From positions 124,001 through 188,000 of the forward strand of contig NZ_JANZXB010000001.1 of the NCBI RefSeq assembly GCF_025371035.1: a DNA stretch of 64,000 nucleotides, in the 5' to 3' direction. This document shows, piece after piece, positions 6,522 to 53,378 of the stretch. How positions within the stretch are numbered: the stretch's first letter is position 1; every line of letters starts with the position of its first letter. The position numbers and the translations under genes were made by a program. This stretch comes from Sphingomonas sp. LC-1. GTDB lineage: Bacteria > Pseudomonadota > Alphaproteobacteria > Sphingomonadales > Sphingomonadaceae. Below the pieces are notes generated by a model. The model searched no databases. It saw only the letters and a list, made by a program, of their open reading frames with translations, and was not told the origin of the DNA.

Positions 6522-6565
6522 ACCATGGTTTGCGCCGTCCGCCAGCCGCTTGTTACGAACCGGCG

Positions 6566-37996: not shown

Positions 37997-38593
37997 TCAG
38001 CGGTCGGAATGGCCCAGCGTGCGCAGGATGCGCAAATCCTGCTCCACCACGCCGGCCGAGAGACGCTCGATCAGGCGCTGGGCCTGACGCCACATGCCGG
38101 TCGGTGGCGGGGCCGCGACGGGGGCGTCCAGCAACCGCCCGCCGCACATTTGCGCCAGGGCCGATCCATGAACCGAACCATCGACGATCAGCGAGGGGAA
38201 TGGCAGCGCGCCATCGGGCGATGCGAAAAGCTGCCCGCCGCTACGCTCCAGCGCGGTCGCGGCGGGTGGCTGGAAGAACAGGGCACCCGCGACCTTCGAG
38301 ACATAATGGCTGGGCGACAACCGCGCCCACCAGATGCTGGCGAGGCACGCCGCCCCTTCCGCCACCAGCAACACGGTCTTGTCGGCATGGGCCACCGCAT
38401 GATCCAGCCGAGTCGCCCAAATGTCCCGCGCCTCGCGTGAGGCGCCATCGAACGGCAATTGGACATCGCCCTGTCGCGGCCAGGCGAACAGATTTTCCCA
38501 GGGCATGGTCCGCTCGCCATCCACCATGGGCAGGGTGATGATCGAAAAGGGGTCATTTAGACGCAGTTCGGCCGGCATGGTCTGCTCCGTCAT
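37997..38593 (-). CDS. RBBP9/YdeN-like alpha/beta-hydrolase protein without a nucleophile serine
   Basis: A protein of 198 residues that looks like the RBBP9/YdeN family of small alpha/beta hydrolases: an early W region (TMPWENLFAWPRQGDVQ), a domain with ATRLDHAVAHADKTVLLVAEGAACLASIWW where the nucleophile elbow should be, and a late AHSD-like end (LRTLGHSDR). The elbow reads VAEGAAC rather than G/H-x-S-x-G, so the serine is absent and catalysis is doubtful. A start at MPAELRLND five codons later is possible. Function unknown. Confidence 0.6.
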   Translation of the reverse strand: MTEQTMPAELRLNDPFSIITLPMVDGERTMPWENLFAWPRQGDVQLPFDGASREARDIWATRLDHAVAHADKTVLLVAEGAACLASIWWARLSPSHYVSKVAGALFFQPPAATALERSGGQLFASPDGALPFPSLIVDGSVHGSALAQMCGGRLLDAPVAAPPPTGMWRQAQRLIERLSAGVVEQDLRILRTLGHSDR

Positions 38594-38654
38594 TGGCGCC
38601 CCTAAGCTACGCCACTTCGCGCGAAGGGCAAGAGCCCGTCGCCTTATCGCAGCG

Positions 38655-39074
38655 TCATTCCGACGTGGCGAGCCGTGCCGGACGCCGCGAACTGCTGAGC
38701 GCTGTGGCGATGCTGTCGACCATCAGCTCATATTGGTCGGCGGTGTAACCCGCCGCCAGAAAGGCGCGAACCTCATGCGAGGGCACGCTATAGCCATGGT
38801 GCCAGCTCAGCACCGCCATGCGCCGCAGCGCCTCCAGCGAGGGATCGGCCAGACGGGGATTGCGCGTCTCGCCAAAAATGCTGCCCAGCGCGCGGCTCAG
38901 CTTGCCCGGTGCGCGCAGGCTGGCGATGCGGTCCCGACGGGCCAGCGCCACGACCTGCCATTCGAGCGCGGAAAGCCGAGCGTCGGGACGGATCGCCGAC
39001 GCGCCGCGCTGCGTGATGGCCGCATCGACCGCGACGCGGGCGGCACCGATTTCCTGAAAAGCGACATAGGCCAT
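38655..39074 (-). CDS. Conserved hypothetical protein, possible target of the adjacent TetR regulator
   Basis: A soluble protein of 139 residues, mostly helical, starting MAYVAFQEIGAARVAVDAAI. Conserved-looking segments include LSALEWQVVALARRD, RNPRLADPSLEALRRMAVLSWHHGYSVPSHEV and FLAAGYTADQYELMVDSIA. I recognise the type as a recurring sphingomonad hypothetical but know no function; it does not resemble an efflux pump. Its promoter (39209-39237) carries two operator-like palindromes matching one at the tetR start, suggesting TetR control. The 5' leader would be about 120 bases. Confidence 0.7.
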   Translation of the reverse strand: MAYVAFQEIGAARVAVDAAITQRGASAIRPDARLSALEWQVVALARRDRIASLRAPGKLSRALGSIFGETRNPRLADPSLEALRRMAVLSWHHGYSVPSHEVRAFLAAGYTADQYELMVDSIATALSSSRRPARLATSE

Positions 39075-39199
39075 GAGACTACCCCTTCTGTCGCGCGACA
39101 TCCCGCGCGCCCGGCCTGTGCCCGACGCGATCGGCAGTCCGTAGCCCGCCGCCGTGCTGTCTCGCTTGTTATCGATCAGAAAGGCCCGAAGCGCCTTCC

Positions 39200-39213
39200 A
39201 TACCGAGTGGTAT
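39200..39213. promoter_or_regulatory. Operator-like palindrome 1 (TetR)
   Basis: ATACCGAGTGGTAT is an inverted repeat (ATACC/GGTAT) overlapping the -10 of a leftward promoter. It shares its arms with the sites at 39246 and 39867. Inferred target: the TetR regulator encoded alongside. Confidence 0.7.
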
Positions 39214-39237
39214 ATTAACCGATGGAAAGGTCGTCAA
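39209..39237 (-). promoter_or_regulatory. Leftward sigma70-type promoter of the hypothetical gene
   Basis: On the minus strand, TTGACG (39237-39232) and TATACC (39214-39209) are separated by exactly 17 bases. The -10 overlaps palindrome 1, and palindrome 2 lies just upstream of the -35, a classical repression layout. Confidence 0.6.
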
Positions 39238-39245
39238 GCAGTTTT

Positions 39246-39259
39246 ATACCGGGTGGTAT
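39246..39259. promoter_or_regulatory. Operator-like palindrome 2 (TetR)
   Basis: ATACCGGGTGGTAT, the same ATACC/GGTAT arms with a one-base different centre, abuts the tetR stop codon and sits 9 bases upstream of the leftward -35 hexamer. Confidence 0.7.
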
Positions 39260-39868
39260 TTAACGCGAAGGCCAGAGTGCCATGCCGGTTTCGACCAGCG
39301 TTTCCAGATCCGCGCGCGTCGCGCCGGACCCGGCCTGCACCGCCATCCCCTGGAACAAGGCATAGAGATATTGCGTCAGCCCTTCGGGATCGACGCCGTC
39401 GCGCAGATCACCTTCTTCCTTGGCCCGCTGGAAACGCGCCAGCAGTGCGGCCTGGGACGAGGCTCGCCGGGCGACGACCTCCGCCTTGATCGATTCGGCC
39501 TCTGCCCCGCAAGCCACCGAGAGGATGACGCCCAGACACCCTTGCGGCTCGTCGCAATTGGTCTGCGCATCAAGCGCGCCGCGCAACAGATACTCGGCTA
39601 CCGCGCGGGCGGTCGGCTGCTCCAGCGCGTCGCGCATATAAGCGAGCTTTTCGGCTTCGTAGAGATCCAGCGCCTTGTGGAACAAGGCTTCCTTATTGCC
39701 GAATGCGGCATAGAGGCTGGGCTTGGTGATTCCCATCGCCTCGGTCAGGTCGGCCATAGACGCGCCCTCATAGCCCTTGCTCCAAAACACCCGGAGCGCG
39801 GCTGCCAGGGCCTTGTCAGTGCAGAATTCGCGTGGCCGCCCCTTACAGACGGGCAATAGGTTTTTCAT
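39260..39868 (-). CDS. TetR/AcrR-family transcriptional regulator
   Basis: The 202-residue protein has an N-terminal HTH (about 12-58; DKALAAALRVFWSKGYEGASMADLTEAMGITKPSLYAAFGNKEALF, given here by its ends only: DKALAAAL to KEALF) and a variable ligand domain with two Cys (NCDEPQGCLG). This subclass (GxxxTKPSLYAAFGNKE) often represses transporters or reductases. An operator-like sequence overlaps its own start codon and two more stand downstream ahead of the next gene, so autoregulation plus control of that gene is likely. It follows the permease gene by 81 bases. Confidence 0.9.
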   Translation of the reverse strand: MKNLLPVCKGRPREFCTDKALAAALRVFWSKGYEGASMADLTEAMGITKPSLYAAFGNKEALFHKALDLYEAEKLAYMRDALEQPTARAVAEYLLRGALDAQTNCDEPQGCLGVILSVACGAEAESIKAEVVARRASSQAALLARFQRAKEEGDLRDGVDPEGLTQYLYALFQGMAVQAGSGATRADLETLVETGMALWPSR

Positions 39869-39880
39869 AACACTCGGTAT
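39867..39880. promoter_or_regulatory. Operator-like site 3 at the tetR start
   Basis: Read on the minus strand this is ATACCGAGTGTTAT, matching palindrome 1 (ATACCGAGTGGTAT) at 13 of 14 positions and overlapping the tetR start codon. It suggests autorepression. Confidence 0.65.
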
Positions 39881-39949
39881 AGAATTATCCGAGCGGTTTG
39901 GAAAGCCCCGGCGGTCGCATCGACGCGCCGGGGTCCTTCCCGATCGGGA

Positions 39950-41353
39950 TCAGGCTTGCGCCAAGGCGCTCCGACGGCGGCCATAGGCGAAGTAAAAGGC
40001 CAGGCCCGCCGCGTTCCAGATGGCGAAACGGACGATGGTCGAGCTGGGCAGGCTGAACAACAGATAGAGGCAACCCGCGATCGCCAGCGTCCCGACCAGA
40101 TAGGGCTGCGGACAGCGGAACAGCCGCTTGGCATCGGGCGCCTTGCGACGCAGCACCATCAGGCAGGCACCCACCGAGATGAACGCGAGCAAGGTGCCCG
40201 CATTGGCAAGCTCGGCAATCTCGTCCAGCCGGAAGATACCCGCCACCAGCGCGATCGACACGCCGGTGACCAGCGTGATGCGGGTCGGCGCGCCGCTCCG
40301 CTTGCTGACCACCGCCAGCGATTGCGGCAGAAGTCCATCGCGCGCCATGGTGAAGAAGATGCGGCTTTGCCCATACATCATCACCAGAATGACTGAGGGC
40401 AGCGCGATGACCGCCGCCAGCGCGATCAGATGCGCCGCCGTCGGCTGCCCCAGCGACCGCAGGACCAGCGCCAGCGGCTCGGGCGAGTTGGCCAGTTGCT
40501 GGAAGGGCAGCGCGCCGACCGCCGTCACCGCGACCGCCATATAGATCAGGGTGCAGACCAGCATCGATCCGACGATGCCGATGGTCAGGTCGCGGCCCGG
40601 ATTCTTGGCCTCCTCCGCCGAGGTCGCCACCGCGTCGAAGCCGTAAAAGGCAAAGAAGACGATCGCCGCCGCCGCCATGACGCCGCGCTTGGCGCCATCC
40701 ACTTCGGTCGCGGCAAAGCCATAGGGCATGAACGGGTGGAGATTGTCCGCGCTGAACGCCGGGGACGCGAAGGCGACGAAGACGCCCAGCGCCACCAGCT
40801 TCACCACCACCAGAATGATGTTCAGCGTCGCGCTTTCGCGGGTACCCGCGACGAGCATTCCCATCACGGACAGCGCGACGAGCACCGCCGGCAGGTTGAT
40901 GATGCCGCCGCCATGCGGGCCGGACAGAAGCTCGGGGGGCAGATGCACGCCCGCCGCCTGTATCCATCCGACCAGATAGCCCGACCAGCCGACCGCCACG
41001 GTCGAGCAGGCCAGCGAATATTCCAGGATCAGGCTCCACCCCACGACCCAGGCGAGCGTCTCACCCAGCGCGGTATAGCTGAAGGTATAGGCGCTGCCCG
41101 CCGCCGGAATCAGCGTGGCGAGTTCGGCATAGGCCAAGGCGGCACAGGCGCACACCGCACCGGCGATGGCAAAGGCCAGGATCACCGCGGGTCCCGCGCG
41201 CTCCGCCCCAACGCCGGTCAGCGTGTAGATGCCGGTGCCGACGATCGCGCCGACCCCCAGGGCGATCAGATGCGGCCAGCTCAGCGTCTTGGCCAGCGCC
41301 TGCCCCTCGCCATGCTGGGTCGCGCTGCCCAGCGGTTTTAACGGTCCGAACAT
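39950..41353 (-). CDS. APC-superfamily amino acid permease
   Basis: A protein of 467 residues with about 12 membrane helices. LIALGVGAIVGTGIYTLTGVGAERAGPA is the first helix pair of the cationic-amino-acid/YfnA-type transporters, followed by AYAELATLIPAAGSAYTFSY and FFAFYGFDAVATSAEEAKNPGRDL. It imports amino acids with protons or exchanges them at the inner membrane; specificity is not visible. It is the last gene of the leftward set DHDPS-like, GntR, permease, so imino or amino acids from peptide breakdown (proline or hydroxyproline) are a reasonable guess. Confidence 0.9.
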   Translation of the reverse strand: MFGPLKPLGSATQHGEGQALAKTLSWPHLIALGVGAIVGTGIYTLTGVGAERAGPAVILAFAIAGAVCACAALAYAELATLIPAAGSAYTFSYTALGETLAWVVGWSLILEYSLACSTVAVGWSGYLVGWIQAAGVHLPPELLSGPHGGGIINLPAVLVALSVMGMLVAGTRESATLNIILVVVKLVALGVFVAFASPAFSADNLHPFMPYGFAATEVDGAKRGVMAAAAIVFFAFYGFDAVATSAEEAKNPGRDLTIGIVGSMLVCTLIYMAVAVTAVGALPFQQLANSPEPLALVLRSLGQPTAAHLIALAAVIALPSVILVMMYGQSRIFFTMARDGLLPQSLAVVSKRSGAPTRITLVTGVSIALVAGIFRLDEIAELANAGTLLAFISVGACLMVLRRKAPDAKRLFRCPQPYLVGTLAIAGCLYLLFSLPSSTIVRFAIWNAAGLAFYFAYGRRRSALAQA

Positions 41354-41404
41354 CGATGGAAATCCCCCCGCCCTGTGACTGGTTGTCCTATGGGCTCATG
41401 ATTG

Positions 41405-42115
41405 TCAGACGACGGGTGAAAACCCGCCTTTCAGGTCCATCAGCGTGGACCGGATATGCGCGTCAAGCAATCCCTGAAGCCGCGCCGCATCGCGGGCCAT
41501 GAAGGCATCAAGCTGTTCGCGATGCTCCAGATGCGCGCGCGCGTCGCGACCCGCGGGTTGCAGATGGGCGACGACATAACGCTCGGCCAGCACCGCCAAT
41601 TGGCGGACGAGCTGGATGGTCAAGGGGCGCCGAACTGGGCGCACCATGGCCATGTGGAATTGGCGATTGCAGACGGCGACGCGTGCCAGATCGCTCTGGG
41701 CCGCCTGATCGAGCGCATCGAACGCCGCGACCAGCTTCACGCGGTCCTCGTCATCGGCGACCAGCGAGGCTTGGGCCGCCGCGATCGGTTCGATCTTCAG
41801 GCGGAGGCCGTAGATATCCTCGGCCTGTTCGGCGGACAGCGCGCCGATCATATAGCCGCGATTGGCGACGCCGTGGAGCAGACCTTCCTGCTCCAGCCGG
41901 GCCATCGCCTCGCGCAGCGGAATCTTGCTGACCCCCAGTTCGGCGGCCAGCGCATCCTGGCGGATCGGACGATCGGCGGGGATCGCGCCCGCGATGATCC
42001 GTTCGCGGACGATCGCGAAGATGCGATCCGCCAGCGTCTGCACGACGATGACGCCCTCGCCCCGATGACGCCCGTCATCGAGCGCGCTGTCCAGGGGCGA
42101 GAGCGTCGTCGCCAT
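41405..42115 (-). CDS. GntR-family transcriptional regulator, FCD type (paralogue 2)
   Basis: The protein of 236 residues has a winged helix-turn-helix (about 28-92; QDALAAELGVSKIPLREAMARLEQEGLL) and an FCD domain (about 100-225) with NRQFHMAMVR and LEHREQLDAF. It overlaps the DHDPS-like stop codon (ATGA) and precedes the permease gene, so it is probably the local regulator. GTATAC-centred sites upstream of the DHDPS-like and GH127 genes fit the N(y)GT...AC(N)y style of GntR operators. A start at VIVVQTLADRIF about 22 codons later would resemble paralogue 1. Confidence 0.9.
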   Translation of the reverse strand: MATTLSPLDSALDDGRHRGEGVIVVQTLADRIFAIVRERIIAGAIPADRPIRQDALAAELGVSKIPLREAMARLEQEGLLHGVANRGYMIGALSAEQAEDIYGLRLKIEPIAAAQASLVADDEDRVKLVAAFDALDQAAQSDLARVAVCNRQFHMAMVRPVRRPLTIQLVRQLAVLAERYVVAHLQPAGRDARAHLEHREQLDAFMARDAARLQGLLDAHIRSTLMDLKGGFSPVV

Positions 42116-43029
42116 CAGGCGGCCTTGGCCTGGCCCAGGGCCGGACGGGTCGCGGCAGCCTTTTCGACCATCGCGATCACCTCGGCACGACGTTCGCCCT
42201 CAAGGACATAACGCGGCGGCAGCACCCGCTCCGAGCCACGCCCCATGACCTGTTCGGCCAGCTTGATCGACTGGACCAGATCATGCTCGGCATCGAGATG
42301 GAGCAGCGGCATGAACCAGCGATAGATTTCCATCGCCTTGGCATGATCGCCGCGCTCGAACGCCGCGACCAGTTCGACCGACTCCTTGGGGAAGGCGTTG
42401 GTCAGGCCCGAGACCCAGCCCTGCGCGCCCAGATACAGCCCCTCGAGCGCCACGTCGTCGAGACCGGCGAACAGGGTGTAACGGTCACCGAACGCATTGC
42501 GGAAATCGGTGAAACGGCGGGTGTCGGGCGCCGACTCCTTGACCGCGACGATGTTCTTCACATCGACCAGCGCCTCCAGAACCGTCTGGTCGATCACTGT
42601 GCGATAGGCGGGCGGATTGTTGTAGAGCATGATCGGCAGCCCGGTCTGGTCCGCCACGCCCTTGAAGTGGTTCACCAGTTCATGCGCCTTAGGCACATAG
42701 ACCATCGGCGGCAGCAGCATCAGGCCGTCGGCCCCGGCCTTTTCCGCCGCCTGGGCATAACGGACCGCGCGGCGCGTGTCATATTCGGACACGCCGGTGA
42801 TGACCGGAACACGCCCGGCCACCGCCTCGACGATCGCGGTCAGCACCGTGACCTTCTCGTCATAGTCGAGCGAGTTGTTCTCGCCGACCGTGCCGAGCGC
42901 GATCACGCCGGTCACGCCGTCGCGAACCAGATCGTCGACGACACGCTGCGTATCGGCGAGGTCGATCGACAGATCCTCCCGAACCTGGGTCGTCACTGCG
43001 GGGAATACGCCGCGCCAGCCGATGCTCAC
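42115..43029 (-). CDS. DHDPS-superfamily aldolase/deaminase (candidate 1-pyrroline-4-hydroxy-2-carboxylate deaminase or L-KDA dehydratase)
   Basis: The 304-residue TIM-barrel protein keeps the Schiff-base K164 (IVAVKESAPD) and Y136 (IMLYNNPP), but reads GTVGENNSL instead of the DapA GTTGEA and continues FPAVTTQ, so it is not a lysine enzyme. Related proteins act on 4-hydroxyproline (deaminase to alpha-ketoglutarate semialdehyde) or on 2-keto-3-deoxy sugar acids such as L-KDA. The nearby imino-acid reductase and permease favour the first; the GH127 arabinosidase would suit either. An 11-base shared operator-like sequence lies 27 bases upstream. First gene of a unit with the GntR and permease genes. 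Confidence 0.75.
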   Translation of the reverse strand: MSIGWRGVFPAVTTQVREDLSIDLADTQRVVDDLVRDGVTGVIALGTVGENNSLDYDEKVTVLTAIVEAVAGRVPVITGVSEYDTRRAVRYAQAAEKAGADGLMLLPPMVYVPKAHELVNHFKGVADQTGLPIMLYNNPPAYRTVIDQTVLEALVDVKNIVAVKESAPDTRRFTDFRNAFGDRYTLFAGLDDVALEGLYLGAQGWVSGLTNAFPKESVELVAAFERGDHAKAMEIYRWFMPLLHLDAEHDLVQSIKLAEQVMGRGSERVLPPRYVLEGERRAEVIAMVEKAAATRPALGQAKAA

Positions 43030-43055
43030 AATCAGTCTTCCTGCTATTGTTCTAG

Positions 43056-43066
43056 ATACTGTATAC
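43056..43066. promoter_or_regulatory. Shared operator-like sequence, copy 1 (DHDPS-like gene)
   Basis: ATACTGTATAC, centred on the palindrome GTATAC, lies 27-37 bases upstream of the DHDPS-like gene. The identical 11-base sequence occurs in front of the GH127 gene. Inferred binding site of the local GntR regulator. Confidence 0.6.
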
Positions 43067-43099
43067 TTTCTTATCGAATGATCGCGATCCGGTCAACGA

Positions 43100-44893
43100 T
43101 CATTCCTCGTCGGGATAGGGCCCCTTGCCGCCTTCCGCGATAAAGCGATCGTTGCGCTGCTCGATCACGCCGAGCGGCACATAACCCAGTTGCAGCATGG
43201 CATCGTGCCACGCACGGATGTTGAACTTCGGCCCCAGGGCCTTCTCCGCCTTGGCCCGTGCGCGCTGGAAGGCGAGCTGCCCCATATAATAGGACAGCGC
43301 CTGACCCGGCCATGCGATATAGCGGTCTACCTCGGTCTCGATCTCGTGATCCGAAAGGGCGGTATTGTCATGCAGATAGGCCTGCGCCTTCTCACGGCTC
43401 CACCCCATGGCATGGATGCCGGTATCGACCACCAGCCGGGCGGCGCGCCACGCCTGATAGGAAAGCATGCCGAACCGGTCATAGGGCGTCTTGTAGAAGC
43501 CCATATCCTCGCCCAGCGCCTCGCAATAGAGCGCCCAGCCCTCGCCATAAGCCGACAGATAGCTGTCGCGGCGGAAAGCGGGCAGGTCCTTGTTTTCGGC
43601 GGCCAGCGGCATCTGGAACGCATGGCCCGGCGCGCTCTCGTGCAGCGTCAGCGCGGGTAGCGCATAGAGTGAACGCGACGGAAGATTATACGTGTTGACC
43701 AGATAGATACCCGTGCCCCCACGACCGGCGGTATAGAAAGGGGCCAGGTCGGCGGGCACCGGCTTGATGGCGAAACGGCTGCGCGGCAGGCGGCCGAACC
43801 AGTCCGACGCGATCCCGTCGAAACTCTTGGCAAGCCAAGCCGCCCGGTCGAGCAGGTCCTGCGGCGTCTTGGCGTAGAATTGCGGATCGGTGCGCAGGAA
43901 GGTCAGGAAGGCGGGGAAGTCGCCCTTGAACTTCACCTCCTTCATCACGCCGTCCATCCGCGCACGGATCCGCTGCATTTCGGACAGGCCGATCGCATGG
44001 ACCTGTTCCGCAGTCATGTCCGAGGTCACATATTCGCGGATCTTCGAACGGTAATAGGCCTTGCCATCGGGCAGGTCATAGGCCGCCGTGCTGGCCTGCG
44101 CGCGCGGCATATAGTCGTTGCGCAGGAAGGTCAGCAGCCGCTGATGCGCAGGCAGCACATCATCGCGGATCGCGGCTTGCGCCTCCGCCCGCAATGCCGC
44201 AGCCGTCGCGGGGGCGATGGTTGCAGGCATCGTCCTGAACGGTTCGTAGAAGGGCTGCTTTTCGCCCACACCCGCATCGATCACCTGCGCGACGCCAATG
44301 TCCCGCCCCTTCAGCGTGACGCGCGGGACCGTGAAGCCCCGCGCCAGCCCTGCGCGCATATTGACGATCTGCTGATCGAAATAGCGCGGCATCTGGTGCA
44401 GCATGGCGATATAGCCGCGATACTGGCTTTCCTTGGTGAAGCTGCCGCGCGACCAACTGGCGAGATTGCCCCAGAAGCTGGTATCCGCGTTGAGCGGCTT
44501 TTCATATTCGCGGAACCGCTGCGCGGCGAGCAGCGCGTCGATCTGGCCGCGATAGACCATGTAATCGGTGCGGACCTCGGGCGAGAGGGTGGCGGGGTCG
44601 ATCGCATCCAGCGCCTTGGCCGTCGACTCCCACCGCGCCAGTCGCGCGGCCTGGGCGGCCGGGCCGACATCGGGGAGTTGGCGCGAACCGGCGCTGCCGC
44701 TGTCCTCGTCGGCCGCATTCTGGCTGACGCGCCATTTATACTCGGCCTCCGACAGCGCACGGAAGCGGGCATCCGCCGCCGTTGGCGCTGGATTTGTGGC
44801 CCGTGCCGGGGTCGCGACCTTCGCGTCGGCAAAGCCGACCGGCAGGATCGCCAGGGCCACACCGGTCAGCAGCAACATGGTCCGGTTCGTCAT
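43100..44893 (-). CDS. Secreted DUF885-family zinc peptidase
   Basis: A protein of 597 residues with a signal peptide (MTNRTMLLLTGVALAILPVGFADA). DUF885 proteins are gluzincin-like carboxypeptidase/dipeptidase-type enzymes; the zinc motif here is HESAPGH (TLHESAPGHAFQ), with AYGEGWALYCEALGE supplying the third ligand. The mature protein is probably periplasmic. It lies 16 bases after the Ldh-family gene, same strand, so it belongs to the GH127-Ldh-peptidase unit and could release imino acids or dipeptides from glycopeptides. Confidence 0.9.
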   Translation of the reverse strand: MTNRTMLLLTGVALAILPVGFADAKVATPARATNPAPTAADARFRALSEAEYKWRVSQNAADEDSGSAGSRQLPDVGPAAQAARLARWESTAKALDAIDPATLSPEVRTDYMVYRGQIDALLAAQRFREYEKPLNADTSFWGNLASWSRGSFTKESQYRGYIAMLHQMPRYFDQQIVNMRAGLARGFTVPRVTLKGRDIGVAQVIDAGVGEKQPFYEPFRTMPATIAPATAAALRAEAQAAIRDDVLPAHQRLLTFLRNDYMPRAQASTAAYDLPDGKAYYRSKIREYVTSDMTAEQVHAIGLSEMQRIRARMDGVMKEVKFKGDFPAFLTFLRTDPQFYAKTPQDLLDRAAWLAKSFDGIASDWFGRLPRSRFAIKPVPADLAPFYTAGRGGTGIYLVNTYNLPSRSLYALPALTLHESAPGHAFQMPLAAENKDLPAFRRDSYLSAYGEGWALYCEALGEDMGFYKTPYDRFGMLSYQAWRAARLVVDTGIHAMGWSREKAQAYLHDNTALSDHEIETEVDRYIAWPGQALSYYMGQLAFQRARAKAEKALGPKFNIRAWHDAMLQLGYVPLGVIEQRNDRFIAEGGKGPYPDEE

Positions 44894-44909
44894 GCTTAAT
44901 CCCCTTTGC

Positions 44910-45905
44910 TCAACCGTTCAAAGCCATCACGTCGCGGTGCAGGTCGGGGGAGATTTCCACCCCTTCGACCAGCGAAACCGCACGCGCGGCATAGCGCCGG
45001 GCGGAGGGCAATCGCGCCCCCTGCCCCGTAATCGCGCCGAACATCGCCTCTGCCCGTGCCTGATGCTCGGGCAGAAGATCACCCAGGAACCCCTTGGGAT
45101 CGATGGCGATAACCAGTTCGCCACCCAATGGCGATCCGCCGCGCCCGGCATCGATGTCGATCGACTCGCGGCTGGTCAGGTCGCCGATCAGCGGCCCGGC
45201 GAGCAGCTCGACCATTGCCGCCAGCGCCGATCCCTTATGCCCACCAAAGGTCCGCATCGCGCCGGACAGGATCGCTGCGGGATCGGTCGTCGGGTTGCCC
45301 TGTGCATCGACGCCCCAGTCGTCGGGCACCGATTTGCCCGCACGCCGGTGAAGCTCGATCTCGCCACGCGCGACCATGCTGGTGGCGAAGTCGAAGACGA
45401 AAGGCGGCTGACCGGGGCGCGGCCAGCCAAAGGCGATCGGATTGGTCCCGAACACCGGCTCCGCTCCGCCGGATGGCGCGACCCAGGCATGGCTGGGCGT
45501 GAAGGCCAGCGCGACCAGCCCCGCCTCCGCCAATTCCTCGACCTCGGGCCAGAGCGCGGCGAAATGCACGACATTGTTCAGCGCCAGCGCGGCGATGCCG
45601 TTCGTGCGCGCCTTCTCGATCAGCGCGGGCTTGCCGGTCTGAAAGGCCAGTTGCGCAAAGCCACCGCCGCCATCGACCCGAACCAGCGCCCTGGCCGGGT
45701 GCGACAGGACCGGCTCGGCATCCGGCACGACGACGCCCTTCTCGATACTGGAGACCGCGACCAGCAAACGGTAAATGCCGTGCGAGGTGCATCCGTCCCG
45801 CTCGCCCGCGACCATCGTTTCGGCCACCGCCTCCGCATGGGCGGGCGCGAGCCCGGCGCCCCGCAGCTTGGTGCGGGCAAGCTGGCGCAATTCCTCCAGC
45901 GTCAT
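44910..45905 (-). CDS. Ldh/malate-dehydrogenase-like family oxidoreductase (candidate delta1-pyrroline-2-carboxylate reductase)
   Basis: A protein of about 331 residues of the LDH2/MDG2 family, which uses NAD(P)H without a Rossmann fold. RDGCTSHGIYRL with likely catalytic H42 is characteristic of the DpkA-like branch that reduces delta1-piperideine- and pyrroline-2-carboxylate in D-lysine, D-proline and trans-3-hydroxyproline breakdown. GGHKGSALAAMVELLAG is a cofactor segment. ATG at 45905 was used; a TTG at 45920 overlapping the GH127 stop is an alternative. Second gene of the leftward unit after GH127. Confidence 0.85.
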   Translation of the reverse strand: MTLEELRQLARTKLRGAGLAPAHAEAVAETMVAGERDGCTSHGIYRLLVAVSSIEKGVVVPDAEPVLSHPARALVRVDGGGGFAQLAFQTGKPALIEKARTNGIAALALNNVVHFAALWPEVEELAEAGLVALAFTPSHAWVAPSGGAEPVFGTNPIAFGWPRPGQPPFVFDFATSMVARGEIELHRRAGKSVPDDWGVDAQGNPTTDPAAILSGAMRTFGGHKGSALAAMVELLAGPLIGDLTSRESIDIDAGRGGSPLGGELVIAIDPKGFLGDLLPEHQARAEAMFGAITGQGARLPSARRYAARAVSLVEGVEISPDLHRDVMALNG

Positions 45906-45916
45906 ACGGATACCGG

Positions 45917-48292
45917 TCAAGCCACGGCCCCCTGCTTCGCAGTAAACAGCCGCATGCCGAAAATCGGCCCTGCCGTGCTGCGATCATGCGGCACGATGCG
46001 GACGCGGACGCTCTTCTTCCCCTTGGTCAGCGGTTCGGGGAGCGGATATTCGACATCGAAGAACGCGCCCGGCCTATCGTTTTCAAGATGTTGCGTGGCG
46101 ACCTTCACATTGTCGACGAGGATGTCGAAGTCGCGTGCGCGCTCCTCGCCCCAATAGGTCGCCTGCAGGATCATTGGGCCGGGGCGCACCGCCATGCTGA
46201 ACTCGATATAACCGCCCGATCGCGCGTCGCGGCCCTGCCGTCCGCGATAGGAAACGGGGTAGGAAATGTCCGAGGTCAGGTTGTGGTCGCGCTCAGGCTG
46301 CATCTCGCCCAGATGCATGACGTCGACAGATCGCGCCGCAATGTCGCGCGCCCGTGCCTGTTCGGCGAGGAAGGCGGCCTCCTGCGTCTTCCATCCGGCG
46401 TCGGTGAAACGCTTGAAATAGACCGCACTACGCCGGTCATATTGGCTGTAGAATGGCGCAAAGCTCAGATTGCCGGGTCGGAAGATTCCCGCCGTGCTAT
46501 AGCGCCCCCCTGCCCCATCGGCGGGCGCGAAGCCGGATAGCGGATTGGCGCCGACCATGACGGGGTCGGGCGAGTCCCATTTCGTATCCCGCCCGCCCAG
46601 ATCCGCGGCCATGACCATCGGCCCGCGCAGCACGGCAACCACCGTATCGTCGCCCGGCGTCGCCTCGATCCGCAGGTCGAGCGGCAGGCGGATCGCCACG
46701 CTGTCGCCCGCCTTCCACCGGCGATCGACAATCGCATAGCCCCGCTCGATTTGCGGCGTGACCGTCTGTCCGTTGACCTCGACCACCGCCTGGCCATTGG
46801 CCCAGCCGGGGATGCGCAGCGCGACCGGGAAGCGCCCTGCCCGATCCAGCCGGTTGAAGGTCATCCTGGCCTGCCCGTCCATCGGATAGGCGGTGTCGAG
46901 CGTGACGATCGCGCCGCGCTTTTCCCATCGCGCCTCGGCCGGGATGTAGAGGTTGACGAAGAAGGTGTCGCCGCCCTGCCAGAAGATGGACTCGCCATGC
47001 TTGGCATGGGCTTCCATCCCCGATCCGACGCAGCACCAGAAGGCATCGTCCTTGTCCGACGAGAATTCCCGCACCATGCCCGACATCAGCGGCGTCATAT
47101 AGGTGAAGCCGCCATGCTCGGGATGCTGCGCCGCCATGACATGGTTCAGATGCGCCCGCTCATAATAGTCGAACAGCCGCCCGTCTGGCTTCCAGCCATA
47201 AAGGTGCCGCGTCAGCTTGAGCATGTTGTAGGTATTGCAATGCTCGCACGTCTGGTCGGTGATGTGGCGCGCGATGGTGTCGGGCGCGGAGAAATATTCG
47301 CGATCGGCATTGCCACCGATGACATAGCTGTGGCGGCCGGTCACCGTTTCCCAGAAGAAGCTCGCCCCCTTGGCCGGTTCGGGCTTGCCAGTGATCTCAT
47401 GGATGCGGGCCAGCCCGATCAGCTTGGGGACCTGCGTATTGGCGTGGAAATTGGCGAGCTTGTCCTCGCCCGCGACCAGCGGATCGAGAACCTTGCGGTC
47501 ATAGATCCGCTCGGCCAGCGCCAGCCACTGACGGTCGCCGGTGCGCTGATAGAGTTCGGCGAAGCTCTCGTTCAATCCGCCATATTCGCAGCCCAGCACC
47601 TCTTGCAGCCGGGCATCGTCGAGCGCCGCGAACACCCGCGCGAAATAGCCGCCCAGCTTCACCGCGACGTCGAGCGCCTGCGCATTGCCCCAGCCGCCAT
47701 GAATGTCGAGCAGGCCGGCAAACAGCTTGTGCACCGTATAGAGCGGCGACCAGCTACCGTTCAGGTCGAAGCCGCCGGACTTGATCTTGCCCGCCATGAC
47801 CTCGGGGAAGATTTCCTCGCCATCGACCACTTTGCCGTCGGGCCGCTTGCGGCCCAGCGCACCGACATAACCATTGCCACGCTTGTCCTGCGCCTCGGCC
47901 AGTTCGGTGACGATATAGTCGGCGCGGCGGCGCATCTCGACATCGCCGGTCTGCTGCCAGGTCAGGACCAGTGCGGACATGTAATGGCCCAGCGTATGGC
48001 CCGCGATCGTGTCGCTTTCCCATCCGCCATAGCGGGGGGCCCGGGGCTCCAGTCCGGCATAGAGACGGAAATTGTGAAGCAACCGATCCGGACTGAGCCG
48101 ATAGAGATAGCGTCGGTTGGTCTCCACCGCCGTCGCATAGGCCGACGGGCGCAACCGTATCGCCGTCAGCGGCAACGGCTCCGCCTTCGACGGCAGGACG
48201 GACATACCCGCCGCCATCGCCCGGGGCGCCGCGCCCATCAGGGCGACCGTCGCCGCTCCCCGCATCCACTCGCGTCTATTTGTCCGCACCAT
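45917..48292 (-). CDS. GH127-family beta-L-arabinofuranosidase, secreted
   Basis: The 791-residue protein has an N-terminal Tat-like signal (VRTNRREWMRGAATVALMGA) and the (alpha/alpha)6 barrel of GH127, whose founding member HypBA1 removes beta-L-arabinofuranose from hydroxyproline-linked sugars. The zinc/nucleophile site is complete: E350 and C352 in TCEHCNTYNM, and the Cys pair C420/C421 in AFWCCVGSG, where one Cys is the nucleophile. IAGHTLGHYMSAL and NWSPLYTVHKLFAGL-type segments are also typical. Start at MVRTNRR with GGAGAG 5 bases upstream. Divergent from the DUF5695 gene. Confidence 0.93.
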   Translation of the reverse strand: MVRTNRREWMRGAATVALMGAAPRAMAAGMSVLPSKAEPLPLTAIRLRPSAYATAVETNRRYLYRLSPDRLLHNFRLYAGLEPRAPRYGGWESDTIAGHTLGHYMSALVLTWQQTGDVEMRRRADYIVTELAEAQDKRGNGYVGALGRKRPDGKVVDGEEIFPEVMAGKIKSGGFDLNGSWSPLYTVHKLFAGLLDIHGGWGNAQALDVAVKLGGYFARVFAALDDARLQEVLGCEYGGLNESFAELYQRTGDRQWLALAERIYDRKVLDPLVAGEDKLANFHANTQVPKLIGLARIHEITGKPEPAKGASFFWETVTGRHSYVIGGNADREYFSAPDTIARHITDQTCEHCNTYNMLKLTRHLYGWKPDGRLFDYYERAHLNHVMAAQHPEHGGFTYMTPLMSGMVREFSSDKDDAFWCCVGSGMEAHAKHGESIFWQGGDTFFVNLYIPAEARWEKRGAIVTLDTAYPMDGQARMTFNRLDRAGRFPVALRIPGWANGQAVVEVNGQTVTPQIERGYAIVDRRWKAGDSVAIRLPLDLRIEATPGDDTVVAVLRGPMVMAADLGGRDTKWDSPDPVMVGANPLSGFAPADGAGGRYSTAGIFRPGNLSFAPFYSQYDRRSAVYFKRFTDAGWKTQEAAFLAEQARARDIAARSVDVMHLGEMQPERDHNLTSDISYPVSYRGRQGRDARSGGYIEFSMAVRPGPMILQATYWGEERARDFDILVDNVKVATQHLENDRPGAFFDVEYPLPEPLTKGKKSVRVRIVPHDRSTAGPIFGMRLFTAKQGAVA

Positions 48293-48307
48293 CTTGCTCT
48301 CCAGCCT

Positions 48308-48323
48308 ATACTGTATACCATAT
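48308..48323. promoter_or_regulatory. Shared operator-like sequence, copy 2 (GH127/DUF5695 divergent promoter)
   Basis: ATACTGTATAC recurs here, extended to the better palindrome TACTGTATACCATA (TAnnGTATACnnTA), 16 bases upstream of the GH127 start in the 99-bp gap shared with the divergent DUF5695 gene. It could control both. Confidence 0.6.
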
Positions 48324-48391
48324 CGGCCGATGACATGAGGGTCAATCGCGACGAGTGCGGCGCCGAGCAGACCCAATAGGGAGGAAATTCT

Positions 48392-51139
48392 ATGCGCCAC
48401 AAGCTTTTACGACTTTTGCCAGTAACGCTGGCGACGCTGTCGGTGACGGCCGGATGGCAGGTCGCGGGCTCTGCCGAAACGCGCAAGGGACGCGCTGCGC
48501 CGACCGCTTCCAAGGCGTCCGACCTGCGCGTCGGCGCCTTCCGCTTGCGGCTCGACCCGGTCAGCCAGACGGCGCGCAGCCTGTCGCCCGTCGGGACGCC
48601 GGGATTCGATTTCCTGCCGGTCGGGCGTTCGCGTGAGCGGGCGGGCAATGGCTATAATCATCTGGGCGACATCCACCTGCGCATCCGCGCCGGATCGGGA
48701 CCGTGGCAGGATTATTCCTCGTCCCGCGAGCGCAAGCCGGTGCGTGCCCTGCCTGTGCGCGGCGGCATTCTGGCGGCGGCGGACATCACCGCGACGATGG
48801 GCACCGGCCTGCCGCTGCGCATCGTTCGCGAATGGGTCAATGAGGGCGGCGTGCCCGCGCTGCGCTTCACCCTGACCAACAATTCGCCCGCCCCGGTGGA
48901 GATTGGCGGGCTGGGCATCCCGATGGTGTTCGACAACATCATCAGCGACCGCACGCTGGAACAGGCGCATGCCCAGGCGAGCTTCGCCGACCCCTATATC
49001 GGGCGCGACGCGGGCTATGTGCAGGTGACCCGCCTGAACGGCGCGGGCCCGGCCCTGCTGGTCCTGCCCGAGCGGGCGACGCCGCTGGAGGCCTATGTCC
49101 CCATCCCGACGGTTCGGGAAACGGGGGGCAAGGCCGTCATTTCCGAGGCCAGCCCGCGCGCCCAGACCTCCGAAGGCTTTTACGACTGGACGATCGCCAG
49201 CGCCGCCTATGCCCAGACCGACTGGGCCAAGGCCGGGGCGCCATGGAACGAGCCGACCAGCATCCGCCTGGCCCCCGGCGAAAGCCGCCGGATCGGACTG
49301 CGCTTCGCCGCCTCGCCGAGCATTCGCGGCATCGAACAGACGCTGACCGCGCAAAGCCGCCCGGTGGTGGTCGGCGTGCCCGGCTATGTCGTGCCGACCG
49401 ATCTCGACGCCGCATTGTTTGTCCGCGCGCCTTCGGCCATCACCGGTTTAACCAGCTATCCCGCCGGCGCGCTGGAGGTGACGCGCCAGCAGGGCAAGCC
49501 GGGCTGGACACGCCTGTCGGTGCGCGGGCGGCAATGGGGCCGGGCGCGTCTGACGCTCCAATATGCCGATGGCAGCGTCCAGACGGTGCAATATTTCGTC
49601 ACCAAGCCGCTCGAGAAGACCATGGCCGATCTGGGACGCTTCTCGACCACCCGGCAATGGTTCGAAGGCAAGGGTGATCCCTTTGGCCGATCCCCCGCCA
49701 TCCTGACCTATGACCGGGAGGCGAACCGCATCGTCACGGACGACCCGCGCGTCTGGATTTCGGGGATGAGCGACGAGGGCGGCGCGGGAAGCTGGGTCGC
49801 GGCGGTGATGAAGCAGCTCGACAATCCCGACGCCGCCGAGATCGCCCGGATCGAGCAACTGGTCGACAAGACCGTGGTGGGACGCCTTCAGGTCGCCGAC
49901 GGGCCCCATGCGGGCGGCGTCAAGAAGAGCCTGTTCTATTACGACCCCGTCGCCTTCCCCAATCTCTATCAGCCCGCCAAGGACTGGAAGAGCTGGACCT
50001 CGTGGAAGAAGGACCAGGCCGACGACCTGGGGCGCGCCTATAACTATCCGCATGTCGCGGCGGGACATTGGGTCCTCTACCGGATCGCGCGCAACCATCC
50101 GGGCCTGACGCGGGTGCATGACTGGCAATGGTATCTCGATCATGCCTATCAGACGATCACCGCGATGATGCGCGACGCCCCCCATTATGCGCAGTTCGGA
50201 TTGATGGAGGGCGACGTCTTCGTCGACATCCTCACCGACCTGAAGCGCGAGGGATGGACCGCCAAGGCCGATGAGGTGGAGCGACTGATGAAAGGCCGCG
50301 CCGATCACTGGCGGACGCTGCAATATCCCTTTGGCAGCGAGATGGCGTGGGATTCGACCGGCCAGGCGGAAGTCTATGCGTGGATGCGCTATTTCGGGTA
50401 CGGACCGCAGGCCGATGTCACGCGCGAGGTGATATTGGGCTATGACCCGACCATTCCGCATTGGGGCTATAACGGCAATGCGCGGCGCTATTGGGACTTT
50501 CTGTATGGCGGCAAATATCCCCGGCTGGAGCGGCAGATCCATCATTACGGATCGACGCTGAACGCCATTCCGCTGTTCGACTCGTTCCGGCGCGACCCGC
50601 GCGACATGCATCTGCTGCGCGTCGCCTATGGCGGGCTGTTGGGCGGGATCACCAATATCGATCAGCAGGGCGCGTCGTCCGCCGCCTTCCATAGTTGGCC
50701 CGACCGGATGGCGTGGGACCCGTATAGCGGCGATTACGGCATGGGCTTTTTCGGCCATGCCTATGCGGCGGCGACCTATCTGGTCGATGATCCTTCGCTC
50801 GGCTGGTTGGCCTATGGCGGCAACCTGTCGCAGACGGGAAGCGCGATCCGGGTCGAGCCGCGCGACGGGGCGCGGAGCCGCTTCTTCGTCGCGCCCGCGG
50901 GGCTATGGCTGACGCTCGAGGCGGGGAAGATCGCGGCGGTCGAATATGATCCGGCCAGCCGGACGGTTCGCCTGACCCTTGACCCCGCCACGGCGACGAC
51001 GCCGACCGCGCGGCTGTTCGTCGAGACGACGACGCCGGGTGGCAAGGCCTATGCCCCCGATCGTGGCACGATGGAGCGCGGCGGCTACGCCATCGCGCTA
51101 TCGGACTCGCCATCGCCACTCGTCCTGTCCGCGAGATAG
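48392..51139 (+). CDS. Secreted DUF5695-type protein, predicted glycan-active enzyme
   Basis: The 915-residue protein has a signal peptide (LLRLLPVTLATLSVTAG region) and a strong ribosome site (GGAGGAA). The N-terminal half (about 40-420) is beta-rich; the C-terminal half reads FSTTRQWFEGKGDPFGRSPAILTYDREANRIVTDDPR, quoted here only by FSTTRQWFE and ILTYDREANRIV, then alternating helices with YNYPHVAAGHWVLYRIARN and EMAWDSTGQAEVYAWMRYFG, like a six-hairpin barrel. I assign it to DUF5695 from memory of these motifs. A glycosidase or lyase role is inferred from the fold and from the divergent GH127 gene; substrate unknown. Confidence 0.75.
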   Translation: MRHKLLRLLPVTLATLSVTAGWQVAGSAETRKGRAAPTASKASDLRVGAFRLRLDPVSQTARSLSPVGTPGFDFLPVGRSRERAGNGYNHLGDIHLRIRAGSGPWQDYSSSRERKPVRALPVRGGILAAADITATMGTGLPLRIVREWVNEGGVPALRFTLTNNSPAPVEIGGLGIPMVFDNIISDRTLEQAHAQASFADPYIGRDAGYVQVTRLNGAGPALLVLPERATPLEAYVPIPTVRETGGKAVISEASPRAQTSEGFYDWTIASAAYAQTDWAKAGAPWNEPTSIRLAPGESRRIGLRFAASPSIRGIEQTLTAQSRPVVVGVPGYVVPTDLDAALFVRAPSAITGLTSYPAGALEVTRQQGKPGWTRLSVRGRQWGRARLTLQYADGSVQTVQYFVTKPLEKTMADLGRFSTTRQWFEGKGDPFGRSPAILTYDREANRIVTDDPRVWISGMSDEGGAGSWVAAVMKQLDNPDAAEIARIEQLVDKTVVGRLQVADGPHAGGVKKSLFYYDPVAFPNLYQPAKDWKSWTSWKKDQADDLGRAYNYPHVAAGHWVLYRIARNHPGLTRVHDWQWYLDHAYQTITAMMRDAPHYAQFGLMEGDVFVDILTDLKREGWTAKADEVERLMKGRADHWRTLQYPFGSEMAWDSTGQAEVYAWMRYFGYGPQADVTREVILGYDPTIPHWGYNGNARRYWDFLYGGKYPRLERQIHHYGSTLNAIPLFDSFRRDPRDMHLLRVAYGGLLGGITNIDQQGASSAAFHSWPDRMAWDPYSGDYGMGFFGHAYAAATYLVDDPSLGWLAYGGNLSQTGSAIRVEPRDGARSRFFVAPAGLWLTLEAGKIAAVEYDPASRTVRLTLDPATATTPTARLFVETTTPGGKAYAPDRGTMERGGYAIALSDSPSPLVLSAR

Positions 51140-51564
51140 GAACGGAGCTGGCGGACCAGGGGCACATCGGCGGGCGGTATGGGCCATGCGTCCATCGCCG
51201 CCGCCTCGCACCAGATCAGGCCGTCCGCCTCCAGCGCGACCGGAATGCCCGACCATTGGCGGACGACATAGAGCAGCAGGACCAGATGGCGACCGGGCAG
51301 CGGCTCGGTCGCGAACCCTGCCGGCTCCAGCGCGGCCGGCTCGACGGAGATCGCGAGTTCCTCATGGAGTTCACGGACCAGCGCGGCCTCGGGACTTTCG
51401 CCCGCTTCGATCTTGCCGCCGGGGAACTCCCAAAGGCCGCCCAGCGATTTGTCCGCCGGACGCTGTTGCAGGAGCACCCGTCCCGCGCCGTCGATCAGGG
51501 CCGCCGCCACCACCGGAAATAGCGGCGCAGGATTATCGGCCCGTGGGCCCTCCCCATAGATCAT
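51085..51564 (-). CDS. mutT: MutT/NUDIX-family (deoxy)nucleoside triphosphate pyrophosphohydrolase
   Basis: MutT cleans oxidised dGTP from the nucleotide pool. The 159-residue protein has the NUDIX box GGKIEAGESPEAALVRELHEEL and the MutT-style LLQQRPADKSLGGLWEFPGGK ahead of it, plus FLxxxWCEAAAMD near the end. Residues 1-14 before FPVVAAALID are extra, so the true start may be later. The 3' end overlaps the convergent DUF5695 gene by 55 bases. Confidence 0.87.
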   Translation of the reverse strand: MIYGEGPRADNPAPLFPVVAAALIDGAGRVLLQQRPADKSLGGLWEFPGGKIEAGESPEAALVRELHEELAISVEPAALEPAGFATEPLPGRHLVLLLYVVRQWSGIPVALEADGLIWCEAAAMDAWPIPPADVPLVRQLRSYLADRTSGDGESDSAMA

Positions 51565-51597
51565 TTCTTAACCCACACCCGATAAGACCGATACGGC

Positions 51598-51789
51598 ATG
51601 ATAGCGTCCAACCTCCTCCGCACCTTGCGACATGTCTGCGCCGATACGCGCGGCGCGACCGCTGTGGAATATGGTTTGATCCTCGCCAGCATCGTTGTGG
51701 TGCTGATCGTGGGGCTCTCCCAATTGGGGGTCAGCCTTCAGGGCGTGCTGCAGCTGCTGAGCAACGAACTGGGCGATGCAGTCCGTTAG
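51598..51789 (+). CDS. Flp-type pilin (type IVb), first copy
   Basis: The 63-residue pre-pilin has a basic leader, RGATAVEYGLILASIVVVLIVGLSQLG with the prepilin cleavage site after Gly and the Glu-5/Tyr-6 pair, and one hydrophobic helix. Type IVb Flp pilins build Tad pili for adhesion. A second pilin gene follows at 51916. No tad/cpa assembly genes lie in the window, so export machinery must be encoded elsewhere. Confidence 0.88.
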   Translation: MIASNLLRTLRHVCADTRGATAVEYGLILASIVVVLIVGLSQLGVSLQGVLQLLSNELGDAVR

Positions 51790-51915
51790 CACTCAGCAGG
51801 AACGTTAAAAACTTAAGCCTTCGTCAACCAGTTAGCGGTTAAACACCACCAAGCTGATCCGGCTCTCCGGCTCAGCCGGGTGATCGACAGAGCATTTGAG
51901 ACAACGGAGACCGGA

Positions 51916-52083
51916 ATGAAGACGATCCGCAAGATGGTGAAGAACAACAAGGGCGCGACGGCCATCGAGTATGGCCTGATCGCTGCCCTGATCGCCGTCG
52001 CCGCCATCGGTGCCATGAAGGGCCTCGGCACGCAGCTGAACACCACGTTCGGCAACATCACCACCAAGCTGTCCAACCCCTGA
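51916..52083 (+). CDS. Flp-type pilin (type IVb), second copy
   Basis: The 55-residue pre-pilin reads MKTIRKMVKNNKGATAIEYGLIAALIAVAAIG, with cleavage after Gly and mature ATAIEYGL, followed by a short polar tail. It is the canonical Flp pilin, shorter and less hydrophobic at the C-terminus than the first copy. GGAG lies upstream with a 9-base spacing. A long hairpin follows its stop. Confidence 0.92.
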   Translation: MKTIRKMVKNNKGATAIEYGLIAALIAVAAIGAMKGLGTQLNTTFGNITTKLSNP

Positions 52084-52152
52084 TCCAATGGCGATCCCGT
52101 GGCGTGACAATATCGCCACCTGATCCCCTGGGCTTGCCCAGCAGGATATGAC

Positions 52153-52206
52153 CTTCGGTCGGATTGTGCCTTACGGACAGCACGCAATCCGGCCGAAGTG
52201 CTTTTT
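52153..52206 (+). terminator. Long hairpin/terminator after the Flp pilin genes
   Basis: CTTCGGTCGGATTGTG pairs with CGCAATCCGGCCGAAG (16 bp with two G-U pairs) around a 14-base loop, followed by TGCTTTTT. It lies 70 bases past the pilin stop and probably ends and stabilises the pilin mRNA. The rest of the 333-bp gap to accA shows no gene. Confidence 0.75.
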
Positions 52207-52355
52207 GGAATGGCTGCGTTCGCGCAGCGCTCATTCGGATGATGCCAGCCGCCCCGCCGATCGCACAGGATCGCTCGTGGCCCCATCATCCCTTCCCGAC
52301 ATCGTGACCGGCAAACGCGCTTCGGTCTGATCGGTGATCCCGTTGAGGGCGCGAC

Positions 52356-52377
52356 AAAAAAATCCCGCAGGAGGGAT
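52356..52377 (-). terminator. Terminator downstream of accA
   Basis: On the minus strand ATCCC-TCCTGC-GGGAT is followed by seven T residues, about 40 bases past the accA stop. Confidence 0.7.
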
Positions 52378-52416
52378 AACGCGCCGCGCCATCCCCCCGC
52401 TATCCGCCATCCGTCT

Positions 52417-53367: not shown

Positions 53368-53378
53368 GGGCCTAGCGC

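Follow-up and report, generated by a model that had tools for sequence, protein, structure and literature searches.

Extensins and arabinogalactan proteins make up an abundant and resistant fraction of the plant cell wall, and to our knowledge little is known of their bacterial fate past the sugars. The closest described systems for the sugar part are XeHypBA1/XeHypBA2/XeHypAA of Xanthomonas euvesicatoria and HypBA1/BA2/AA of Bifidobacterium longum, which employ GH127/GH146 and GH43 enzymes for the arabino-oligosaccharides on hydroxyproline-rich glycoproteins (PMC6085000, PMC10850190). In X. euvesicatoria a prolyl oligopeptidase gene lies adjacent, as a pseudogene; in both systems arabinose is the product used, and the available portions of the reports mention no hydroxyproline catabolism, epimerase, DHDPS enzyme or GntR regulator (PMC6085000, PMC10850190). 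For the imino acid part, the hyp/lhp clusters comprise an epimerase, a DAO-type dehydrogenase, a DHDPS-family deaminase, an aldehyde dehydrogenase, an Ldh_2 (MLD2) reductase and a GntR repressor; a glycosidase is not described as part of them in the available portions (PMC4113996, PMC6608401), and the main text of PMC4113996 contains neither "glycoside hydrolase" nor "extensin". An in silico prediction for Latescibacteria likewise has GH127 enzymes attacking extensin, but it is a genome-wide list of functions, with no linked locus or regulon described in the portion available (PMC4454575). A literature search confined to titles and abstract openings, with few subscription journals covered, found no linked glycosidase and hydroxyproline-catabolism locus. 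Here we describe such a candidate locus in a 64,000-nucleotide stretch of Sphingomonas sp. LC-1 (contig NZ_JANZXB010000001.1, positions 124,001 to 188,000; G000:C1:124001-188000), hereafter the window.

The locus is quite probably one arm of a regulon through which the bacterium feeds on hydroxyproline-rich glycoproteins of plants, be they arabinogalactan proteins, extensins or both. Of the hyp/lhp gene types the locus itself has the DHDPS, Ldh_2 and GntR genes, and with them stand a beta-L-arabinofuranosidase of the kind used by the sugar systems, a candidate peptidase and a permease. All seven genes named in an earlier note on this DNA were found by gene calls and Pfam matches where that note had placed them, together with their motifs. 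Six form a tightly packed minus-strand run, with gaps of at most 70 bp and two small overlaps, and the gene for the DUF5695 protein is divergent. The features are as follows (coordinates in the window).

39950..41353, minus strand: APC-family amino acid permease (PF13520, E 1.2e-53); its cluster occurs in 26/80 related loci
41405..42115, minus strand: GntR/FCD regulator (PF00392 and PF07729), candidate regulator for the locus
42115..43029, minus strand: DHDPS-superfamily enzyme (PF00701), predicted to be a probable pyrroline-4-hydroxy-2-carboxylate deaminase
43055..43065, no strand: putative operator GATACTGTATA, upstream of the DHDPS-GntR-permease genes, one mismatch against TATACNGTATA
43100..44893, minus strand: DUF885 protein (PF05960, E 1.1e-152), candidate peptidase
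44910..45920, minus strand: Ldh_2 oxidoreductase (PF02615), resembling delta1-piperideine-2-carboxylate reductase
45917..48292, minus strand: GH146-like beta-L-arabinofuranosidase (PF07944, E 9.6e-117), frame open up to GTG 48400
48307..48317, no strand: putative operator TATACTGTATA, between the GH146 and DUF5695 genes, the genome's only perfect TATACNGTATA copy
48392..51139, plus strand: DUF5695 protein, exported judging by its N-terminus, predicted PL27-like fold, candidate carbohydrate-active enzyme

The linkage of these genes was followed in the 80 best of the 283 GH146 relatives that were confirmed in named genomes, a choice that biases the set to close kin. Most of the 80 loci come from Sphingomonas, Novosphingobium and Caulobacter, and four from Acidobacteria (L040, L057, L062, L078). 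The loci and the window were gene-called with a finder trained on alphaproteobacterial genes, which is weak in the acidobacterial loci, and the proteins were clustered, with Pfam names taken from one or a few members of each cluster. Many of the loci share the order GH146-Ldh_2-DUF885, with DUF5695 upstream of it and divergent. Of the 80 loci, DUF885 is present in 69, Ldh_2 and DUF5695 in 56 each, DHDPS in 48, a proline-racemase-family (4-hydroxyproline-epimerase-type) gene in 37, DPP-IV/S9 in 36, the window's GntR cluster in 34, GH43 in 33, prolidase and DAO in 29 each, the permease in 26, TonB receptors in 37 (two clusters summed), GH27 in 11, and GH2 and POT in 7 each. At least one of DHDPS, epimerase, DAO and prolidase accompanies GH146 in 54/80 loci and all four do in 19/80; DHDPS and epimerase occur together in 36/80. 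The distance and orientation of these last two differ among loci while the linkage is kept.

The combination is repeated outside the Proteobacterial set. About 20 kb of L057, from Granulicella, holds an epimerase, a DAO, a Pyr_redox_2/Fer2_BFD protein, a DHDPS, an aldehyde dehydrogenase, GH127, GH146, DUF885, an amino acid permease, GntR-FCD and DPP-IV, and in L062 an epimerase, a DAO, a Pyr_redox_2 protein and a DHDPS lie less than 10 kb from GH146. Sugar and hydroxyproline genes are thus combined in two of the four acidobacterial loci; clustering found no hydroxyproline genes in L040 and L078, where the gene finder is weak. The best NCBIfam epimerase models for the L057 and L062 proteins differ from that for the sphingomonad epimerases, and the scores are slightly under the cut-offs (411/442 and 422/450). 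The hexamer GTATAC lies upstream of GH146 in L057, L062 and L078 and not in L040; other copies lie within the L057 S9 gene (18986) and, in L040 and L078, elsewhere than at GH146.

Co-occurrence was assessed in two samples chosen independently of linkage, one of the genus (61 genomes) and one of the family (69 genomes, one per genus). In the genus sample an epimerase was found in 25 genomes, a close GH146 in 21 and both in 19, so that the epimerase accompanies 19/21 genomes with a close GH146 and 6/40 without (p 9e-9); in the family sample, where eight genomes have an epimerase above 570 bits and four a close GH146, the figures are 4/4 and 4/65 (p 8e-5). Here "close" means at least 63% identity in the genus and at least 56% in the family, limits chosen after seeing the rows, and the p-values ignore kinship; under the original search cut-offs the counts were 20/24 against 5/37 (p 5e-8) and 5/6 against 5/63 (p 1e-4). 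The pair lies within 20 kb on one contig in 13 of the 19 co-occurring genomes of the genus; in the others it is split between contigs (G000, which is the window's genome, G093, G091, G097 and G100) or 122 kb apart (G120), and in G075 and G126 GH146 was present and no epimerase was found. Three of the four family genomes have a GH146 copy 3.0, 8.0 or 9.2 kb from the epimerase; G052 has two copies, one of 56% near the epimerase and one of 64% elsewhere on the contig. The genes are not, then, randomly scattered among relatives, the outcome that the earlier note had named as contrary to its idea. Some of the GH146 matches contain stop codons: a TAA in one G052 copy and in the G032 copy, and a single TGA in G115, G101, G091, G121 and G107, that is, in 5/21 close matches of the genus sample.

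The glycosidase, which the earlier note assigned to GH127, is nearer GH146. Among solved chains 5opj, which we take to be BT0349, ranked first (452 bits, E 2.7e-134), compared with 98.5 bits for the best GH127-labelled chain, 4qjy, and about 55 bits for 3wre and 3wkw, the latter presumably HypBA1; GH146 is therefore the better label. The complete Glu/Cys zinc site claimed alongside the family stood. The Zn-site and catalytic residues are Glu368, Glu386, Cys388, Cys456 and Cys457 (numbered from GTG 48400), with E386, C388, C456 and C457 forming the Glu-Cys-Cys-Cys Zn site described in PMC10850190, and the three Glu/Cys motifs are present in 81/81 members of the GH146 cluster (79 loci, the window and L089). 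The probable start codon is ATG 48292, and read from there the N-terminus is Tat-like (RREWM). A second protein matching the GH127 family model is encoded on contig C23 of the same genome. The new label leaves the glycopeptide idea unweakened: the GH146 enzyme Bll4HypBA1 is reported to act on Araf-beta-1-hydroxyproline (PMC10850190), and XeHypBA1, also of GH146, belongs to a set degrading arabino-oligosaccharides on hydroxyproline-rich glycoproteins (PMC10850190, PMC6085000).

The predicted structure of the DUF5695 protein bears on the class of substrate. Foldseek matches re-examined with VIA-align, a list outside which other families may still match, place an N-terminal beta-sandwich and an (alpha/alpha)6 barrel as in PL27, an arrangement common to the PL27 enzymes, which act on gum arabic as L-rhamnose-alpha-1,4-D-glucuronate lyases (PMC8377490). 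Unlike these, DUF5695 carries an additional C-terminal beta-sandwich; it is 15% identical to PL27, and no PL27 chain matched its sequence profile up to E 10. DUF5695 is thus predicted to fold like PL27 and is a candidate carbohydrate-active enzyme. Since PL27 acts on arabinogalactan proteins, the substrate need not be extensin, and may be arabinogalactan proteins as well as, or instead of, extensin; extensin as the substrate, in the wording of the earlier note, is not supported. The DUF885 protein, whose HE..PGH motif occurs in 73/73 cluster members and which is found in 69/80 loci, is a candidate peptidase for hydroxyproline-rich peptides, exported judging by its N-terminus; calls of secretion here are N-termini read by eye rather than predictor output. 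In a mostly open-access literature we found no functional study of DUF5695, mentioned only with fungal velvet regulators, and, judged by titles, none on DUF885 function among papers on DUF885 and peptidases.

Every step from 4-hydroxyproline to alpha-ketoglutarate has a candidate gene in this genome, over three contigs, and of these only the epimerase passes a curated model. The epimerase, which the earlier note suggested looking for outside the locus, is present on contig C34 (536.8 bits against the NF010578 cut-off of 376, with motifs MCGH and SPCGTG), beside an M24 prolidase, a DAO-type oxidoreductase and an S10 peptidase; the epimerase of L013, where DHDPS adjoins it, also exceeds the cut-off of this 4-hydroxyproline epimerase model. 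For the dehydrogenase, likewise suggested, there is the DAO-type candidate on C34, a DAO family member by Pfam that stays short of the curated cut-off (best NCBIfam model D-amino acid dehydrogenase, 137 against 383). The last-step candidate, and nothing more is claimed for it, is an aldehyde dehydrogenase on contig C7, 55% identical to that of a Sinorhizobium meliloti pSymB region that, in another strain of the species, has been annotated as a hydroxyproline cluster. It sits in a D-xylose Weimberg-type cluster (L116, G000:C7:50500-63005, positions 2197-11078) with genes for an aldose epimerase, an IlvD/EDD dehydratase, an FAA-hydrolase-family protein, a D-xylose 1-dehydrogenase and an SMP-30 lactonase. 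An arabinose link through alpha-ketoglutarate semialdehyde, with this cluster as the L-arabinose pathway, was rejected: the SDR scores above the cut-off of the D-xylose 1-dehydrogenase model (456.9 against 400), the dehydratase below that of the L-arabinonate model (515.8 against 882). The search for a DPP-IV in this genome gave a best match of 34% identity, beside a GH2 gene on C46, and no clear orthologue of the S9 gene of the loci.

The Ldh_2 oxidoreductase is, as the earlier note had it, like a pyrroline-2-carboxylate reductase (DpkA): its nearest solved structure is the delta1-piperideine-2-carboxylate reductase 1wtj (E 6.3e-69), which we take to be DpkA. With the Ldh_2 protein encoded in the S. 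meliloti pSymB region it shares 56% identity. Trans-3-hydroxyproline dehydratases carry Thr at one of the two Cys sites of the proline-racemase family. In the racemase cluster (37 loci, L085 and L089) SPCGTG is present in 39/39 members and MCGH in 38/39, the remaining one being a fragment, and only one protein of the window's genome exceeds the Pfam cut-off for the family. No dehydratase is thus visible among them for a trans-3-hydroxyproline branch, which leaves the role of Ldh_2 unexplained.

The DHDPS enzyme is a probable pyrroline-4-hydroxy-2-carboxylate deaminase. It scores 182 bits with the dapA model, below the cut-off of 206, and its active-site lysine and tyrosine align with those of E. 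coli dapA. In a tree of 24 rows, with references picked by gene neighbourhood and not by assay, it falls in a 15-row group (support 99/98) that also holds hydroxyproline-cluster members from Burkholderia, Thalassospira, Streptomyces, Ruegeria and S. meliloti, and that is separate from E. coli dapA, nanA, yagE and yjhH; the Burkholderia and Streptomyces records are unannotated, their clusters being called through a racemase match. This grouping with DHDPS genes beside racemase/epimerase genes agrees with the hydroxyproline-deaminase kind proposed earlier. By phylogeny and gene context, an enzyme acting only on 2-keto-3-deoxy acids, the contrary case raised at that time, is made less likely.

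Palindromes lie at promoters of both sets of genes. Two patterns, TATACNGTATA and ATCGTATACGAT, were derived from palindromes upstream of eight gene clusters in the 80 loci and the window. In the 80 loci together with window 38001-53000, intergenic DNA (160 kb) contains 131 sites that match TATACNGTATA with at most one mismatch and genic DNA (1605 kb) contains 11; the reversed pattern gives 5 and 0 in the same DNA. An intergenic site is present in 66/81 loci. Sites are most often found at DUF5695/GH146 (22), a TonB gene (18), GH146/S9 (17) and DAO/DHDPS (14), followed by GH146 (13), DHDPS (12) and GntR2/S9 (11). The window has two matches, against 0.03 expected, and GTATAC occurs twice in its 64 kb, at both promoters (GH146/DUF5695 and DHDPS). 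Across the whole genome (4.15 Mb) the only perfect copy is that at 48307-48317, a further ten sites have one mismatch, and the reversed pattern is matched 27 times. Four of these 11 sites fit, at GH146/DUF5695, DHDPS, a TonB gene and a GH2-S9 pair. The one-mismatch palindrome of the TonB gene, on contig C12, lies 75 bp upstream of it, and that of the GH2-S9 pair on C46, TATTCCGTATA, 80-90 bp upstream. Contig C34 has no TATACNGTATA within one mismatch. A related form, CGTATACGA, has four copies in the genome (reversed pattern 23), two of them on C34, before the prolidase gene and between the epimerase and DAO genes, nearly touching the called DAO start; of the others, one precedes a gene that reads like Lon by eye and one is intragenic. 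The form of the palindrome suits the FadR-type GntR half-site TKGT/ACMA (PMC6608401), and the window's GntR shares 34-35% identity with GntR proteins encoded near 4-hydroxyproline epimerase genes of Thalassospira and Pseudomonas aeruginosa. These positions suggest an operator shared by glycan and hydroxyproline genes in one programme, which the window's GntR would bind.

Some observations were made around these sites. The C12 gene (L122, G000:C12:331500-339500, positions 4060-7128) encodes a TonB receptor 61% identical to the receptor of the loci and is divergent from an MdoG-type gene. On C46 (L133, G000:C46:94000-113900, positions 945-6370) a GH2 beta-galactosidase-type gene overlaps a peptidase S9-type gene, and the genes beyond the pair read by eye like cobalamin synthesis. 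In L085 a distinct palindrome, GTGATATAGTATCAC, lies just upstream of 6360, before an S10 carboxypeptidase-like gene.

From these genes we infer a course whose reactions, substrates, export, uptake and GntR ligand are predicted from homology and gene position. Glycopeptides would be taken up by the C12 TonB receptor, and the exported PL27-like DUF5695 protein and the GH146 beta-L-arabinofuranosidase, with other glycosidases, would strip the glycan. DUF885, an S9 peptidase and the M24 prolidase may then release free hydroxyproline, to be imported by the APC permease, a candidate importer of hydroxyproline or related amino acids. The C34 epimerase and DAO-type dehydrogenase would yield pyrroline-4-hydroxy-2-carboxylate, which the DHDPS enzyme would deaminate to alpha-ketoglutarate semialdehyde, and an aldehyde dehydrogenase, with that on C7 as candidate, would oxidize the latter to alpha-ketoglutarate. 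GntR would keep the promoters shut through the GTATAC palindromes until hydroxyproline or a derivative appears. The earlier idea that one locus handles the sugar and the imino acid of the same glycopeptide is well supported by the genomic evidence of clustering, co-occurrence and a shared putative operator, and is extended to a putative regulon; the GH127 label and extensin as the necessary substrate are not supported. A wider proposal, which we hold tentatively and at a little below an even chance, is that a GntR regulon responding to hydroxyproline ties removal of the glycan to imino acid catabolism, the glycoproteins being in this way consumed whole, in Sphingomonadales, Caulobacter and Acidobacteria, with DUF5695 a new PL27-like carbohydrate-active family and DUF885 proteins peptidases for hydroxyproline-rich peptides. 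A gene set of this kind, recurrent in sphingomonads, apparently co-regulated and reaching from the glycan to alpha-ketoglutarate, would mark the niche; it would also point to substrates to try with DUF5695 and DUF885, and make it simple to test genetically whether commensals of plants feed on their defence glycoproteins.

Three other explanations were weighed. The locus could serve pectin side chains or arabinose in general, with GH146 and DUF5695 acting on arabinan or rhamnogalacturonan and the DHDPS enzyme being a 2-keto-3-deoxy-sugar-acid dehydratase or aldolase. The founder of GH146, BT0349, is sited in a rhamnogalacturonan-I locus (PMC10850190), which suits this view, as do the sugar-acid enzymes in the DHDPS superfamily, our tree having included no proven L-2-keto-3-deoxyarabonate dehydratase, and a Rhizobium phaseoli DHDPS, 75% identical to that of the window, which has GntR but no hydroxyproline genes beside it and stands one gene from an alpha-L-rhamnosidase and a sugar ABC transporter. 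DHDPS is, however, accompanied by an epimerase-type gene in 36/80 loci and lies apart from the four E. coli enzymes; a prolidase, DPP-IV, DUF885 and an amino acid permease have no part in arabinan use, and the palindrome also occurs at the C34 prolidase and epimerase/DAO genes. We regard a pectin or arabinose locus as unlikely. In the R. phaseoli plasmid locus (L088, positions 9168-10912) the GntR gene is divergent from DHDPS, and a LacI regulator gene is also nearby.

It is still less probable that a glycosidase operon and an unrelated amino acid operon are simply neighbours held together by common descent. The loci are phylogenetically related, their GH146-Ldh_2-DUF885 order is nearly fixed, and 26/80 have none of the four hydroxyproline genes in their flanks, some being cut by contig ends; but linkage persists where the distance and orientation of DHDPS and epimerase vary, L057 joins the functions in another phylum with an epimerase nearest a different NCBIfam model, and the palindrome stands at promoters of both modules, also where these are unlinked in the window's own genome. 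Least probable of all is a locus for small arabinosylated hydroxyproline peptides, such as signal peptides or lectins, instead of bulk cell-wall glycoprotein. One clear glycosidase in the window locus, and a permease and DUF885 that would suit small products, are in keeping with it, and some relatives add GH43 (33/80), GH27 (11), GH2 (7) and TonB receptors (37), which tells the other way.

The 26 loci, the R. phaseoli homologue and the composition of the tree weigh against the glycoprotein regulon as well, and so do several further points. The loci are related, so their counts are not independent. The window DHDPS and the own DAO, prolidase and C7 aldehyde dehydrogenase exceed no NCBIfam cut-off; the epimerase, DAO and prolidase lie on another contig (C34) than the window locus, and Ldh_2 fits no obvious step of the 4-hydroxyproline route. 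The S. meliloti pSymB DHDPS is only 30% identical to that of the window, and the DHDPS of an R. leguminosarum hydroxyproline cluster falls outside the clade on a long branch. The L-arabinose route in this genome was looked for at the C7 cluster only. Seven of the 11 TATACNGTATA sites in the genome do not fit, four lying within genes (L123, L124, L125, L127) and three being without a convincing target (L121, L128, L129).

The APC permease (39950..41353) exceeds the cut-off of no NCBIfam equivalog. Flanking the locus, at window 52417-54584, accA adjoins a tyrosine recombinase near the XerD type, which scores 276 with NF001399, slightly under the cut-off of 279.

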